Positions 18,190 to 53,229 of a stretch of DNA of 64,000 nucleotides are shown here, piece after piece. Positions within the stretch are counted from its first letter, which is position 1; the number at the start of each line of letters is the position of its first letter. The position numbers were made by a program, and so were the translations under genes. This DNA comes from a bacterium. GTDB lineage: Archaea > JAADDD01. Location: NCBI GenBank assembly GCA_013154095.1, contig JAADDD010000001.1, positions 62,001 through 126,000 of the forward strand, read 5' to 3'. The notes under the pieces were generated by a model, which saw only the letters and a list, made by a program, of their open reading frames with translations, made no database searches and was not told where the DNA came from.

Positions 18190-18246
18190 GGTTCAGCACT
18201 CGGCGAAAATCATCACTGTTCAGCAGTTACCCCTCTCATCACGAAA
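18190..18246 (-). ncRNA. C/D-box guide sRNA in the leader of the DHH gene
   Basis: Read on the minus strand: C box GTGATGA (18242-18236), 12-nt guide, D' CTGA (18223-18220), 3-nt spacer, C' GTGATGA (18216-18210), 13-nt guide, D CTGA (18196-18193). Spacings are those of archaeal C/D sRNAs that direct fibrillarin methylation. The D' guide pairs over 9 bp with 23S 22575-22583, which would place 2'-O-methylation at U22578. The D guide has only a weak 23S match near 21811 and may target another RNA. Confidence 0.85.
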
Positions 18247-19936: not shown

Positions 19937-19981
19937 GACCGCCTCCAGGGTCCGGGCAAAGGGGACCGTGCCGCAGGAACG
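19937..19981 (+). other. 5' half of the 23S bulge-helix-bulge processing stem
   Basis: A 17-nt outer helix (19937-19953), GGGCA (19954-19958), a 3-nt bulge AAG (19959-19961) and a 20-nt inner helix (19962-19981) pair without mismatch to 23088-23132. This is the classical archaeal rRNA bulge-helix-bulge cut by EndA. Confidence 0.88.
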
Positions 19982-23087
<3,106 letters not shown>

Positions 23088-23132
23088 CGTTCCTGCGGCA
23101 CGGTCCCTGCCTAAAGGACCCTGGAGGCGGTC
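23088..23132 (+). other. 3' half of the 23S bulge-helix-bulge processing stem
   Basis: Inner helix 23088-23107, TGCCT 23108-23112, bulge AAA 23113-23115, outer helix 23116-23132, complementary to 19937-19981. The two 3-nt bulges lie on opposite strands, separated by 4 bp plus one G-U pair, as required for splicing endonuclease. Confidence 0.88.
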
Positions 23133-23146
23133 GAAAACACCAAAGC

Positions 23147-23425
23147 GGTGGCTGGGCGAGCGGCTACCGGGCCTTGGCGGAGGCCGGCTCCGGAGGAAAC
23201 CCGCCCTCCGCTTCTGCGGGACCGCAAGGTCACGGGAGAGCTTCCCGTCTGGCCCGGCACAGCAACGGGACGCCTCCAGGAGATGAGCATGAACCGGGGC
23301 CTGGCTCCGGAGACAATTCCTGGAGTAACCGGTGAAACGCGCCGGGCCAGCCGCTGCGGAGCAAGGCCGCGAGGCCGCTGAGTAGAATGCCGCGAAAACA
23401 GAAGGCGGGTTACTGCCCAGCCACC
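23147..23425 (+). ncRNA. rnpB: RNase P RNA
   Basis: About 279 nt beginning 15 nt after the 23S processing stem. P1 is an 11-bp perfect helix between GGTGGCTGGGC (23147) and GCCCAGCCACC (23415). P4 is an 8-bp helix of AACCCGCC (23198-23205) and GGCGGGTT (23404-23411). The first strand sits in GGAGGAAACCCGCC, which matches conserved region I, and the second in ACAGAAGGCGGGTTA, which matches conserved region V. GGTGAAACG and AGCAAGG in the specificity/P10 area also fit. It probably shares a transcript with the 23S. Its last 39 nt are also the start of the radical SAM gene. Confidence 0.85.
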
Positions 23426-34918: not shown

Positions 34919-34970
34919 ATGATGAAGAGGTCACGGGCTGAACAGTGATGAGCTTTCAGCCCATGTCTGA
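34919..34970 (+). ncRNA. C/D-box guide sRNA with a long 23S match
   Basis: C box ATGATGA (34919-34925), 12-nt guide, D' CTGA (34938-34941), 3-nt spacer, C' GTGATGA (34945-34951), 15-nt guide, D CTGA (34967-34970). The D guide is complementary for 11 nt to 23S 22880-22890 and extends toward the D box with one mismatch and one G-U pair. The N+5 rule places methylation at G22880. An AT-rich promoter-like region precedes it. The RNA ends at the convergent ProRS stop codon. The D' guide has no convincing target in this window. Confidence 0.92.
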
Positions 34971-48267: not shown

Positions 48268-48304
48268 ACTAACTTTATTTAATTACAGGTTTAAAATGCT
48301 TTGC

Positions 48305-48358
48305 TGAACAGTGATGACTCGATTCCAAGCTGAGCGCGTGATGAAAAACAGTTTTCAG
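48305..48358 (+). ncRNA. Candidate C/D-box sRNA, second half degenerate
   Basis: Plus strand: C GTGATGA (48311-48317), 12-nt guide, D' CTGA (48330-48333), 4-nt spacer, C' GTGATGA (48338-48344). A proper final D box is lacking; the expected place near 48355-48360 reads TCAGCG. That position is the D box of the opposite-strand sRNA. The D' guide has no evident 23S target in this window. Either the D box is non-canonical or only the C/D' half works. Confidence 0.55.
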
Positions 48359-48420
48359 CGCAGGGACGTGGAGTTCATCATCCCCCGTTCTCAGCCCATG
48401 GCAGAGTCATCATTGCTGAA
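48350..48420 (-). ncRNA. C/D-box guide sRNA with two 23S targets
   Basis: Minus strand: C ATGATGA (48413-48407), 12-nt guide, D' CTGA (48394-48391), 9-nt spacer, C' ATGATGA (48381-48375), 16-nt guide, D CTGA (48358-48355). The D' guide pairs over 11 bp with 23S 22563-22573, predicting Um at 22566. The D guide pairs over 10 bp with 22175-22184, predicting Gm at 22179. Flanking GCAAT and a short region to the CPBP gene give little room for a separate promoter. Confidence 0.92.
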
Positions 48421-48456: not shown

Positions 48457-49218
48457 ATGCCGCACGACGACCGGCTGCTCTGGTTGTTTTTGCTGCTAGT
48501 TTATGTAGCAGTGCAAGAATTTCTTGTTTTCTGTTATACGGGCAGTTTTGCCTTCTCTCCTATGCTTGCAGCCATTTGCATAATATACTTGGCTGGACTA
48601 GTGCACGGCAGCTTCAGCGAACGCTACGAGCTGAAACTAAAAGCCAGATATATTCTGCTCGGTTTTGGCTACTTCTTGCTTTCGCTGTTTATCATTGTTC
48701 TGCTCGGCTTGCTTTTCCGCGCACTTACTGGAGCCCAGCTCTTTGAGCAGTTCAGCCACAGGGTCCTCTTTTCTCCTAAAGTTCACAGCAACAATTATAT
48801 TATTTTTTACGTTTTCAAGCGACTGCTTTCTTCGCTCGGAATGCTCGGACTTATGTTCATTTTTGCTATTTTAGCTGTCGTTGCACTTGTAGAAGAAATT
48901 GTTTTTCGCGGAGTGATTCTAGATGCTGTTAAGCAGCTTGCAAGCGTGCTTGTCTCTGAGCGCACGGCCTTAGCAGTAGCGGTTGTTTTCCAGGCAGCGC
49001 TCTTTGCAGTGCTGCACCTTGCCTGCTGGAACCTCGCGGCGCTCGGCAAGCAGTACTGGCCTGTAGTGCTCTCAGTCGTGCTTGAGCTAGCGGCGCTCGG
49101 CATTATCCTTGCCTGGGCACGTCTGAGAACTGGCAGCCTCGCAGTTTCTGCCGCTTGCCACTTTTTCTACGACGCGTGCGTTGTGCTGGCAATGTTTTTA
49201 TATTTCAGGCTCGTCTAG
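48457..49218 (+). CDS. CPBP (Abi/CAAX-like) intramembrane protease family protein
   Basis: 253 residues with about seven membrane helices. The catalytic signature EEIVFRG at about 147-153 is followed by FAVLHLA near 190 and ACHFFYDA near 235, giving the Glu-Glu, Arg and two His of the CPBP/Rce1 superfamily. Archaeal members have varied or unknown substrates. It lies just after the sRNA pair, and CysRS follows after 17 bp. Confidence 0.85.
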   Translation: MPHDDRLLWLFLLLVYVAVQEFLVFCYTGSFAFSPMLAAICIIYLAGLVHGSFSERYELKLKARYILLGFGYFLLSLFIIVLLGLLFRALTGAQLFEQFSHRVLFSPKVHSNNYIIFYVFKRLLSSLGMLGLMFIFAILAVVALVEEIVFRGVILDAVKQLASVLVSERTALAVAVVFQAALFAVLHLACWNLAALGKQYWPVVLSVVLELAALGIILAWARLRTGSLAVSAACHFFYDACVVLAMFLYFRLV

Positions 49219-49235
49219 TTTTCCGTGGGAAGATT

Positions 49236-50603
49236 GTGCGCCAGCTGATCTATAACACTTTTTCGCGCAGCTACGAAGAGTTTGTTCCTGCAGATCCGCG
49301 GCTAGTAAAAGTATATGTTTGCGGACCAACACCCTACGATTTCTCTCATATAGGTCACGGAAGAACGTTTGCTTTCTTCGACACAGCAATCCGGTGGCTA
49401 AGAGAGTCGGGCTACACTGTGCTCTACGTAATGAACATTACTGACATTGACGACAAGATGATAAAAAGGAGCGCCGAACTAGGCATTTCCTGGGAAGAGT
49501 TCAAGGAATACATGACAAGGGAGTTCTTCTACGATATGGAGCTGCTCAACGTTCACGCAGTCTCGCTCTACGTGCGCGCAACAGACGTGATTCCTGAAAT
49601 AATATCGTTTGTCCAGCAGCTGCTCGACAAGGGCATAGCCTACGTTACTTCGGACGGAGTATACCTCGAGGTATCCCAGCTCAGCGACTACGGTAGGCTA
49701 GCAGGCGTGCGGCTAGAAGAGCTCACGCACCACAGGATTGAGCCAAGCCCCTACAAGAAGCATCCCGCAGACTTTGCTCTCTGGAAGTTCAAGAAACCTG
49801 GAGAGCCGAGCTGGCAGGCTCCTTGGGGAGAAGGCAGGCCTGGCTGGCACATCGAGTGCGCCGCGATGATTCTCAGGTACTTGGGCGGGCAAGTAGACAT
49901 CCATGGCGGAGGAGCAGATCTAATCTTTCCTCACCACGAAAACGAGCGCGCAGAAATGCTGGCGCTTACAGGCAAGGAAATTGCCCGTTACTGGATGCAC
50001 GTTGCCATGGTAAAGGTAGAAGGAGAAAAGATGAGCAAGTCGCTCGGAAATATTGTGCCGCTCAGGCAGCTAGTCAAAGAAGCTGGCACGGTTGCTGCCC
50101 GCTGGTACCTGCTCTCTGCCCACTACCGCAAGCCCCTAGACTTTTCTTGGGACGAAGTAGACAAGTACAAGAAACTTGTCCAGCGTCTAAGAGCAGTAGA
50201 GCAATTACTGTCAGACGTGGACGCAGAGATTCCTAGAAAACCTTTGCCAGAAAGCTTGCAGGAGCTCCTAGAAAAAATTTATTCTGCTCTAGCCAACGAC
50301 TTCGATACCCCTGTTGCTCTAGCCAACTTCTATTCGCTTCTCACTGAAGCAGAAAAGCAGGCAGAAAACCTGGAAAATGAACAAAAAGTCCTGCTCCTGC
50401 ACCACTATACCAGAATTGCTCGTGTTTTTGGTTTCTTGCTTCCAGGAGCATATCTAGAACGAAAGCTGCTACAAATAATTGCTGCTGTACGTGACCAGCT
50501 TCGAGAACGAAAGCTGTACGAGCTTTCTGATGCTATAAGAGCAGAACTTATAAAGTTAGGCTACAGAGTAGTAGACACTGCTAAAGGCTCGAAAATCTAC
50601 TAA
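49236..50603 (+). CDS. cysS: Cysteinyl-tRNA synthetase
   Basis: About 455 residues from GTG 49236 ([16 protein letters not shown]), the family-like start; the longer frame runs back into the CPBP gene. The class I motifs are [10 protein letters not shown] (HIGH) near 30 and EKMSKSLGN (KMSKS) near 265. Zinc ligands include CGPTPYD, HIECAAM and HHENERA. The stop is immediately followed (3 nt) by the first C box of a C/D sRNA array. Confidence 0.96.
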
Positions 50604-50689
50604 ACAGTGATGAGCCCTAGGCTTCAGCTGAGCAGTGATGAACCTCGCCGTTCCTGAAAATGTGATGACACTCGTTACAGCTGAAAACA
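50604..50689 (+). ncRNA. Triple C/D-box guide sRNA array
   Basis: Three C boxes GTGATGA (50607-50613, 50635-50641, 50662-50668) alternate with three D boxes CTGA (50628-50631, 50654-50657, 50681-50684). Guides are 14, 12 and 12 nt, and linkers are 3 and 4 nt. Guide 2 pairs over 8 bp with 23S 22115-22122 (predicted Gm 22119). Guide 3 pairs over 9 bp with 22122-22130 (predicted Am 22124). Guide 1 has only an 8-nt match (GCCTAGGG near 21233) in the wrong register. No room for a promoter after cysS, so it is probably processed from the cysS transcript. The next start codon is 5 nt after the last D box. Confidence 0.9.
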
Positions 50690-51328
50690 ATGAAAATAAA
50701 GCTGGAAAGCGAGTACAAGGTAAAAATAAACGAAAAAACACTGCAAGAATTATCGAACTACGAGAAGCTAAAAGACTTGCTTACTAGTGCGGCTAAAGCC
50801 ATCAATGCAGAGCCGCAATTCTTAAAATTTTATAAAACGGAAAAAGAGGAGCTATATTTTGATACCAAGGATCGCAGACTCAAGGCAAGTTTCATTTCTT
50901 TGCGGTTAGATACTGTTTCTCGTATTCTTACTGCAAAGGTCCGCATTTTTAGCAACGGTGCGCTCAAGGAGTCTGTAGAATACAGCAGCAGGCTCACGCA
51001 CCAAGAAGCAGAGCAGGTACTTGCGCGTCCGTCAGCTGTGCTCGACTTTCTCGCAAGAGAGCTCCGGCAGGCAATCCTGCAACGTGCTAGACCAGAAGAG
51101 CTAGTCATTGCTTCTAAGATTACTACTTCGCCGAGAAACGCTGTACAGCTAGCGCTCCGGACAAGCAAACAGAAAGTGCTGCTAGAGCTGCTGCTAGACA
51201 GGAAGATCCTGCACGACTATATTTCAGGCACTACACGGCGCTTCTGCATGCTAGAGCTGGAGCACCTGAAAGGCAGCAAGCGCCTCTTCTGCGAGTTTGT
51301 CTTGGAGTTTCTGCGCCACGTGAGGTAA
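50690..51328 (+). CDS. CYTH-like (triphosphate tunnel) domain protein
   Basis: 212 residues. The start ESEYKVKI resembles the CYTH ExExK signature. ELYFDTKDRRLKASFISLRLD resembles the YFDT...L...LRLR strand pair, and later strands carry alternating Lys/Arg and Glu (TAKVRIFS, CMLELEHL, CEFVLEFL). CYTH proteins hydrolyse or cyclise triphosphates in a beta tunnel. The match is partial and the family call tentative. The start codon lies 5 nt after the sRNA array. Confidence 0.5.
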   Translation: MKIKLESEYKVKINEKTLQELSNYEKLKDLLTSAAKAINAEPQFLKFYKTEKEELYFDTKDRRLKASFISLRLDTVSRILTAKVRIFSNGALKESVEYSSRLTHQEAEQVLARPSAVLDFLARELRQAILQRARPEELVIASKITTSPRNAVQLALRTSKQKVLLELLLDRKILHDYISGTTRRFCMLELEHLKGSKRLFCEFVLEFLRHVR

Positions 51329-51345
51329 AACATTTATTTAATTTA

Positions 51346-53229
51346 TTGATAATTTCTAGAATGCAGCAAGTTCTGCTAAAGTTGCCTGTACGCTCATTCG
51401 AGGAATTGCTGAACCTAGAAAGGAGCAAGCTGCTAGCCCTGCTAGACCAAATTAGCGGCCAACTAAAGCAGAGCTTTCCAGAAATTTACTCGCTGGTAGA
51501 TAAAGTTGCTGGTAATGAGCAGCGACTGCTGCGCAGGCAAGCTCTACGTCTGTTGTTCTTGCAGCTAACCCCTCCACTGTCTTGCTCTGGGGTTTTGCTG
51601 CTGCGAAGGCTGCGCGAGCTAGAAAGAGAACTTGGCCTCGAGCACGTTGAGCGCATAGGGATGAAGAAATTCTGTAGCGCAGAGAGGCTCTACGCTCGGC
51701 TAAGACTCAACTTTGGCGCGCGGGTAGACAGGCAGGTAGCAGAATGCTGCGCGAAGCTGCTCAGAATTACTTATTACTGGAACAAGGAACAGGTGCAGCG
51801 CAGACCAGTGAAGGGTAAGACGTTCAGCTGGCAGCTTTCCCTGCTGTTCTTTTCTCGTCTGCCAGGAATTGCTCTGCTCAGAAAAACAGTCAAGGACTAC
51901 CTTTTCTTTTCTTCGTTGTTCTATTTCTTGCTTGGGATGGACTTCTTAGCCAATGCTTCGCTTGTCTTTGCCTATTTATCTTTGTATGATCGGCAAGCAA
52001 GAGAGCTCTATGCTTCGCTCAAGGATCCAGAAAAGTTCATGCAGAAGCTAGATGAACTTCCAGGACTGCCGCTGCTTGGCTCGCTTATCGACGCTAACCT
52101 TGCTCCAGAAGAGCTGCTCGCGTGGCAGCTTATCCTGCTCTGGATATACTGCGAGCAGCCAAGCCTGGATAAGTTGCTGGAAGACCCAAGAAACTGGCTA
52201 AACGTAGAGTTTCTGCAGCAACTAGATGCAGGTCTCTGGTTGCTGCCTGCACTCTGGCTGCCGAAGTACAGGCAGCAGTACAAAAAGAGCGATGCACACC
52301 TAAAAGCATTCCTGCTCCAGGTCTTGCAGCAAGGCGACTACACCGAAGAAGGCTCCAAGCTTACGCTTTACTTGCCTGCACCAGTGCTAGAAGCTAAGAA
52401 AATTTCTTACGAGCAAGTTCAGCGCTTTCTTCGCTCGCGTGGCCTGTACATACTTACTATAATTCCGCGCAAGCAGCACACTCTCTACTCCTTATATATA
52501 CTGAAGGCCACAGCTTCAGAATTCCTAGAAGCTCTTACAAGTAATGTAAGAGCAGAAGAAATTTTTAGCAAGAAAGAAATCGCTGAGCTGATAAATAAGG
52601 ATGTACGAGAGCTGCTACATCTTGCAGAGAAGTGCAGAGAGCTGCTCGATGCTACAAAAAGATCGCTAAAGCCAATAAAGGTGCTTGCCTACTTCAAGAA
52701 AGGGGGCGCTGCGATGTACTTGGCAAAAGAAGTATTCAACAAAGACTACAGGTTTGCCTGCAAGCTCCTAGCTTTAAGCTACGCTGACAGATTACCCAAG
52801 ATTGTGCTAGAACTGCTGGAAGGCAAAGATGTTGCGGAAGTGCTGGCAGGCGCAGCAAGGCTAACGGACGAAGAAAACCTGCCGCTCGACGTGCTGCTTG
52901 TCCAGGATCCGCTCCTCCTGGCCTTGCCGTTTATCGCGTACAGGAACATCCACGTAGTCGAAGAAGTGTGCTTTATTATGCACAAGATACTGGCCTCCTG
53001 GAACAGCTACGGCGAGCTCGCAGAAAGAATTGCTGACTGCTACTTTACCCGCTACGTGCTCAGGCAGCGCCAGAGCAGGACGAAACTGAACGTGCTGCTG
53101 GCAAAGCTTTCTCGGGAGCTCAACGTTGATTCCACTAAACTGCTGCTCTTGGCTTGTCTAGCTATACGCTACAGACATTCGTTTAATCTGCCTAACATTT
53201 TGCAGCAAGTTTTTAGCTACTGGAAGTAG
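51346..53229 (+). CDS. Large helical orphan protein
   Basis: 627 residues, nearly continuous helix rich in Leu, Arg and Gln, with hydrophobic helices at about 165-215 (FFSRLPGIALL, FFSSLFYFLLG). A possible small mixed domain occurs near 355-390 (YLPAPVLEAKKISYEQ, LYILTIIPRKQHTLYSLYIL). No motif recognised. A 105-bp gap downstream to the convergent ThyX-like gene shows nothing notable. Confidence 0.6.
   Translation: MIISRMQQVLLKLPVRSFEELLNLERSKLLALLDQISGQLKQSFPEIYSLVDKVAGNEQRLLRRQALRLLFLQLTPPLSCSGVLLLRRLRELERELGLEHVERIGMKKFCSAERLYARLRLNFGARVDRQVAECCAKLLRITYYWNKEQVQRRPVKGKTFSWQLSLLFFSRLPGIALLRKTVKDYLFFSSLFYFLLGMDFLANASLVFAYLSLYDRQARELYASLKDPEKFMQKLDELPGLPLLGSLIDANLAPEELLAWQLILLWIYCEQPSLDKLLEDPRNWLNVEFLQQLDAGLWLLPALWLPKYRQQYKKSDAHLKAFLLQVLQQGDYTEEGSKLTLYLPAPVLEAKKISYEQVQRFLRSRGLYILTIIPRKQHTLYSLYILKATASEFLEALTSNVRAEEIFSKKEIAELINKDVRELLHLAEKCRELLDATKRSLKPIKVLAYFKKGGAAMYLAKEVFNKDYRFACKLLALSYADRLPKIVLELLEGKDVAEVLAGAARLTDEENLPLDVLLVQDPLLLALPFIAYRNIHVVEEVCFIMHKILASWNSYGELAERIADCYFTRYVLRQRQSRTKLNVLLAKLSRELNVDSTKLLLLACLAIRYRHSFNLPNILQQVFSYWK

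Follow-up and report, generated by a model that had tools for sequence, protein, structure and literature searches.

A box array between two open reading frames

Does the gap behind a cysteinyl-tRNA synthetase gene encode a single C/D sRNA with three guides, and to what would those guides be directed? Each archaeal C/D sRNA is described as having two guides (PMC7994747), and the 489 sRNAs reported from seven archaea by Dennis et al. (2015; PMC4644070) have two guide regions each. At 50607-50684 of the window (the whole 64-kb stretch of DNA that was analyzed), C and D boxes alternate three times on the forward strand in the layout C-14-D-3-C-12-D-4-C-12-D, spanning 78 nt from C1 to D3. C box 1 (50607-50613; GTGATGA, an exact match to the RTGATGA consensus) is followed by guide 1 (50614-50627, 14 nt) and D box 1 (50628-50631, CTGA). 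After the 3-nt spacer GCA come C box 2 (50635-50641, GTGATGA), guide 2 (50642-50653, 12 nt), and D box 2 (50654-50657, CTGA), and after the 4-nt spacer AAAT come C box 3 (50662-50668, GTGATGA), guide 3 (50669-50680, 12 nt), and D box 3 (50681-50684, CTGA), all on the plus strand. The first-pass annotation of this DNA had described three perfect C and three perfect D boxes alternating with guides of 12-14 nt, and its coordinates were exact.

All six boxes are perfect, so that the RUGAUGA and CUGA signatures of C/D sRNAs are each present in three copies. Guides 2 and 3 have the length of 10-12 nt given for guides between archaeal C and D boxes (PMC7994747, section 3), and guide 1 lies outside it. 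The usual archaeal form, with two guides in about 50-70 nt, is exceeded in both respects. The D1-GCA-C2 junction can be compared with CTGA-ACA-GTGATGA, which is present in two other sRNAs of the window.

The array sits in an 86-nt gap between two same-strand open reading frames (ORFs) taken from the ORF list and overlaps neither. Upstream is cysS (49155-50603, +; PF01406, E 1.9e-113; start codon uncertain), whose stop codon ends 3 nt before C box 1, and downstream is an ORF with no Pfam match and no assigned function (50690-51328, +), whose start codon lies 5 nt past D box 3. Most C/D sRNA genes of archaea overlap one end of an adjacent ORF (PMC7994747). From this position, the sRNA would be cotranscribed with the cysS-ORF message and then excised, which would leave the downstream message nearly leaderless. 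L7Ae bound to the boxes could also influence the expression of the downstream ORF. A terminal stem was not visible by inspection, the flanks of the array being A-rich; nor did inspection reveal a long stem beside any of the three remaining perfect double arrays of the window. For the naked RNA, a competing fold of -22.5 kcal/mol was predicted (z -2.1).

The boxes compared with chance and with known families

To estimate how often such boxes arise by chance, C-guide-D units and double arrays were counted in 150 windows of 64 kb simulated with a Markov model. The simulated windows contained 0.37 single C-guide-D units each, and the actual window contained 10 units and 5 double arrays, both overlapping halves of 50607-50684 being counted. 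A chance origin of the boxes was rejected, since not one double array appeared in the 150 simulations.

Archaeal C/D families of Rfam align to both overlapping two-guide halves, in every case below the curated cut-offs. The 5' half is matched by snoPyro_CD (RF00095) at 50603-50660 (E 3e-5; 31.7 bits against a gathering cut-off of 45) and by sR9 at 50606-50659 (E 0.0015), and the 3' half by sR12 at 50633-50685 (E 0.005) and sR7 at 50631-50686 (E 0.007). At the cut-offs, the search of the whole window returned 23S rRNA, SRP RNA, RNase P RNA, and two tRNAs, and reported no C/D sRNA. The 23S rRNA gene occupies 19973-23424 and is followed after 51 nt by the RNase P RNA. No match to 16S rRNA was found in the 64 kb, and hence the two large rRNA genes do not lie side by side in the window.

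Three further two-guide C/D arrays with perfect boxes are located at 34919-34970 (+), 18193-18242 (-), and 48355-48413 (-), and of the six guides that they contain, four are predicted to form at least nine Watson-Crick (WC) pairs with the 23S rRNA, at 22880 (11), 22578 (9), 22566 (11), and 22179 (10). A different arrangement was seen at 48304-48344 (+), where CTGA-ACA-GTGATGA-CTCGATTCCAAG-CTGA-GCGC-GTGATGA sets a perfect D-C junction on either side of a single 12-nt guide; neither a perfect C box upstream nor a perfect D box downstream was seen. Judged by its box order, the locus could represent a circular, permuted C/D sRNA. The guide at this locus forms at most 6 WC pairs in the 23S rRNA and fits the 16S rRNA of three of ten relatives at similar positions (10 WC pairs and one G:U in L149 and L156, 9 WC pairs in L153).

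Predicted targets of the three guides

The clearest target is that of guide 3, which pairs through nine consecutive WC pairs with 22122-22130 (+) of the 23S rRNA (-13.2 kcal/mol). The N+5 position is A22124, corresponding to A1977 of Escherichia coli (E. coli equivalents of 23S positions were taken from a pairwise alignment). No other 23S site that includes N+5 exceeds 6 WC pairs. Both the segment and the predicted methyl position agree with those proposed from the sequence by the first-pass annotation. In shuffled guides, a match of at least nine WC pairs was obtained with P 0.025, and the energy score of guide 3 was unremarkable taken alone (P 0.37). An 8-WC site for this guide was found in the 16S rRNA of one of ten relatives.

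For guide 2, there are several candidates. The annotation had paired it with 22115-22122 (+), with G22119 (E. coli G1972) as the methyl position, and this perfect match of 8 WC pairs (-13.6 kcal/mol) was confirmed. Absent from the annotation was a more stable duplex of 10 bp (9 WC pairs and one G:U; -19.2 kcal/mol) with 22048-22057 (+), in which N+5 is G22051 (E. coli G1903); we take this as the preferred target. Guide 2 matches both sites because the heptamer AACGGCG is present in each. A further 8-WC site, at G20743, ranks between G22051 and G22119 by stacking score. The unbroken WC run is 8 at G22119 versus 7, the longest over N+5, at G22051, and both thus fall short of the rule in PMC4644070, which asks for nine consecutive WC pairs across N+5 but is relaxed for double guides. 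According to PMC7089733, which cites Yang et al. (2016), a duplex of 8-10 bp suffices for high methylation, and G22119 is therefore kept as a possible secondary site. Matches of at least 8 WC pairs were common among shuffles of guide 2 (0.42), and its energy score was again unremarkable alone (P 0.27). In three of ten relatives (L148, L152, and L154), guide 2 forms 9 WC pairs and one G:U at one site of the 16S rRNA, and from these relatives' sequences its target may lie in 16S. The only match to a conserved use of AACGGCG among 300 Thermoproteota genomes was not counted, because the 40 nt to either side contain neither another C box upstream nor another D box downstream and the match lies in a 129-aa stretch free of stop codons.

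Guide 1 is the least certain of the three. Its best 23S pairing consists of 12 contiguous bp (10 WC and two G:U) with 21694-21705 (+; -25.2 kcal/mol), in which the N+5 base, G21696, is paired G:U. The corresponding energy shuffles gave P 0.008 when G:U was permitted at N+5 and P 0.72 when WC was required. No 23S site combined a WC pair at N+5 with an unbroken WC run longer than 7, and no consistent 16S site was found among the ten relatives. Nine consecutive WC pairs to rRNA over N+5 are found for guide 3; guide 2 has WC pairing over N+5 at several sites, at none of them with nine in a row, and guide 1 pairs there only with G:U. When the SRP RNA, the RNase P RNA, and the two tRNAs of the window were considered as targets of the three guides, at most 7 bp were formed. 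Guide 1 may bind 21694-21705 but leave it unmethylated, given the G:U pair at N+5, or may serve an RNA outside the window.

Taken jointly, the pairings of guides 2 and 3 are rare in shuffled guides. In 28 of 200,000 WC shuffles, a guide 2 match of at least 8 WC pairs lay within 10 nt of a guide 3 match of at least 9, and with both thresholds at 8 WC pairs the count was 75 of 100,000. With one G:U allowed, the abutting model (the same thresholds, within 10 nt) was reached in 12 of 20,000 shuffles and the G22051 model (both at least 9, within 100 nt) in 14 of 20,000. A cruder energy score gave 862 and 691 of 40,000, respectively, and is weaker support than the WC counts. These statistics do not choose between G22051 and G22119, and the pairing of the guides to the 23S region around these sites is probably real.

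The bases contacted point in the same direction. At 22121, 22122, 22123, and 22130, the 23S rRNA of the window differs from 30 of 30 aligned Thermoproteota sequences, these being the best-matching loci (216 of 300 genomes were matched). Guide 3 pairs three of these bases (G22122, U22123, and U22130), and guide 2 pairs two of the four at the abutting site; at the G22051 site it pairs 22050 and 22052, whose bases occur in 3% and 0% of the relatives. As predicted pairings, then, the guides are suited to the organism's own 23S rRNA rather than to a generic one. A double guide is one whose targets lie within 100 nt of one rRNA (PMC4644070, section 16), and A22124 lies 73 nt from G22051 and 5 nt from G22119. 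Guide 3 with 9 WC pairs and guide 2 at G22051 with 9 WC pairs and a G:U are comparable to the other guides of the window, four of which reach 9-11 WC pairs in the 23S rRNA.

A proposed three-guide RNA and its alternatives

The reading that we favor, with a probability of about one half, is that the locus encodes a three-guide C/D sRNA in which guides 2 and 3 would work together as a double guide of the usual kind in domain IV of the 23S rRNA, at G22051 and A22124. Transcription, processing, RNP assembly, and methylation, which we infer from the boxes, spacings, and complementarities, would proceed as follows. An sRNA gene expanded to three C-guide-D modules would yield, probably by excision from the cysS-ORF transcript, one RNA of about 80-87 nt. 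Its C1 and D3 boxes would pair as the terminal k-turn and D1/C2 and D2/C3 as two k-loops, and each of these motifs would recruit L7Ae, Nop5, and fibrillarin. The targets of 2'-O-methylation would be A22124 for guide 3 and G22051 for guide 2, with G22119 as a secondary option. Both predicted sites belong to the subunit-interface part of domain IV, and helices 68, 69, and 71 are described as methylation hotspots (PMC4644070, section 4). The layout resembles that of the 14 distinct double arrays found in two genomes of the Asgard phylum with spacers of 2-8 nt allowed: the spacer is 3 nt in seven of them and 4 nt in three, and the first guide has 12 nt in 11. Against the three-guide reading, no relative shares the gene, the energy P values of the single guides are weak, no terminal stem is visible, and the naked RNA has the competing fold noted above. 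The confidence placed in it is limited to about one half because of the 16S site for guide 2 in the relatives and the shortfall of both guide 2 sites from the nine-pair rule.

The annotation had left open one three-guide RNA or a fused pair. Because a fused pair requires four boxes of each kind, this part of the proposal falls; with three of each, the choice is between a single three-guide RNA and two alternative two-guide RNAs that overlap, C1-g1-D1-C2-g2-D2 or C2-g2-D2-C3-g3-D3, in which case the third module would be a recent duplication or insertion. The Rfam models do fit each half separately, guide modules with their boxes are described as mobile (PMC4644070, section 4), and an array of the Asgard phylum (see below) has a third C box that no D box follows, which would fit the partial gain or loss of a module. 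Yet the middle module is shared, so each transcript could give rise to only one of the two RNAs, the 3-4 nt between D and C boxes are too short to hold the termini of two RNAs, and the six perfect boxes show no sign of decay, which makes overlapping sRNAs a rather unlikely arrangement. Equally doubtful is that a single pair of modules functions, with guide 1 as an orphan passenger beside a working guide 2/guide 3 double guide. The lack of a good 23S target with a WC pair at N+5 and of a consistent 16S site speaks for it, and 28% of Pyrobaculum guides have no significant target (cited in the review PMC7994747); the perfect boxes of guide 1 and its 12-bp contact speak against it.

A joint action of guides 2 and 3 on 22115-22122 and 22122-22130, as a continuous clamp of about 16 nt that would methylate G22119 and A22124 and chaperone folding, had also been proposed in the annotation. 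Both perfect matches exist and abut, their joint chance in the WC shuffles is low (the 28 of 200,000 above), and the unbroken run of guide 2 is the longer one at G22119. The geometry, as we infer it from antiparallel pairing, makes the clamp improbable: guides and targets run in parallel order (5' guide 2 on the 5' target, 3' guide 3 on the 3' target), so that continuous antisense pairing, which would require the reverse order of guides, is unlikely. Moreover, the D2-AAAT-C3 junction would tie the outer ends of the duplexes (22115 and 22130) and have to span the whole helix, and G22122 is claimed both by the 5' side of guide 2 and by the 3' side of guide 3. The duplex at G22051 is also the stronger one, and the heptamer shared by the two sites accounts for the second match. 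Far less probable still is a TIGR-like tandem guide array of a Tas system, unrelated to methylation. Tandem C/D-like boxes with spacers do resemble TIGR arrays as described in PMC12045711, but the boxes have the archaeal sRNA consensus and not the CCA/UG of TasR TIGR arrays (PMC12045711), there are three modules only, and the guides match the cell's own 23S rRNA. A Nop domain was absent from the 16 window proteins scanned (of 51 ORFs of at least 180 aa).

Within the favored three-guide reading, it is conceivable, if somewhat unlikely, that all three modules work and that the RNP closes into a ring in which k-turn-type motifs, Nop5-fibrillarin arms, and guide duplexes are each present three times. 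According to PMC7994747 (section 3), the archaeal C/D sRNP is a machine with two guides, assembled on a Nop5 dimer; the odd number of motifs in such a ring would break this two-fold architecture, and the RNP would gather 23S segments at about 21.70, 22.05, and 22.12 kb of the window in collinear order. Three perfect modules in a natural RNA thus raise the question of whether the machine can take an odd number of motifs. The array may equally be regarded as a snapshot of guide-module gain, one way in which sets of methylations have been proposed to evolve.

Rarity of three-module arrays

Of 200 Thermoproteota genomes, 31 contain double arrays with perfect boxes and a 3-nt spacer, 44 in all, and the reversed control gave none. 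Triples were searched in Thermoproteota and the Asgard phylum with a perfect-box D-C-guide-D-C pattern and a second spacer of 3 or 4 nt, and no complete perfect-box triple was present in the 517 genomes (398 Thermoproteota and 119 of the Asgard phylum), a count that passes over degenerate triples and other spacer lengths. The Thermoproteota gave two matches to the pattern with the 3-nt spacer and none with 4 nt, and both were rejected as triples: one had neither an upstream C box nor a downstream D box, and the other was an ordinary two-guide array preceded by a stray CTGA, with no upstream C box.

The Asgard-phylum genomes gave one incomplete array with the 3-nt spacer and none with 4 nt. This array (locus L163 of genome G434, about 1482-1540 of that locus) reads C-12-D-AAA-C-12-D-AAA-C, which amounts to three C boxes, two D boxes, and 2.5 modules. 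It forms a tRNA-sRNA-tRNA cluster between tRNA-Ser (1379-1476) and tRNA-Lys (1554-1627). It is like the window locus in its perfect boxes and in having a third C box at k-loop distance, and it differs in that its third module reaches the tRNA without a D box. Of the 47 distinct double arrays read (33 and 14, from 48 loci on both strands), it alone shows a third C box; another is preceded by a stray CTGA that lacks a C box, and complete triples number zero. The three-module array is therefore rare in the genomes searched and is a variant of the known archaeal C/D sRNA type.

The organism itself stands apart. Matches to its cysS reach 45%, the identity of its 23S rRNA is at most 78% over most of a 1.1-kb query in both phyla (Thermoproteota and Asgard), and a 614-aa protein encoded further downstream (51385-53226, +), which has no Pfam domain, retrieved only itself among 7,995 scored candidates. 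On these comparisons, it is placed as an isolated lineage with distant closest relatives.

Comparison with known guide RNAs

A "three guide" or "triple guide" RNA was not found in the archaeal C/D sRNA literature searched, a body of work that did not include the six-species Pyrobaculum study (10.1093/nar/gky284). The phrase "three guide" occurs three times in PMC4652768, which concerns H/ACA RNAs.

The nearest known systems are the double-guide sRNAs (snoPyro_CD, RF00095, and the sR families; PMC4644070). The window locus shares with them the RTGATGA and CTGA boxes, the 12-nt guides, the D'-C' spacers of 3-4 nt, and the N+5 rule, as well as the position at an ORF end and two guides predicted to act within 100 nt of 23S domain IV, and it differs in having three C boxes, three D boxes, and three guides instead of two. 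The permuted and circular C/D sRNAs of Nanoarchaeum equitans, as presented in PMC3491384, are similar in having a non-standard order of modules in one gene; their box order is rotated, however, while the window locus begins with a C box and ends with a D box, so that no permutation is needed. Two nearby methylations directed by one guide RNA, as predicted here for guides 2 and 3, are also described for yeast snR13, snR48, U18, and U24 (PMC5389607), which achieve this through unusual C'/D' motifs and without an extra module.
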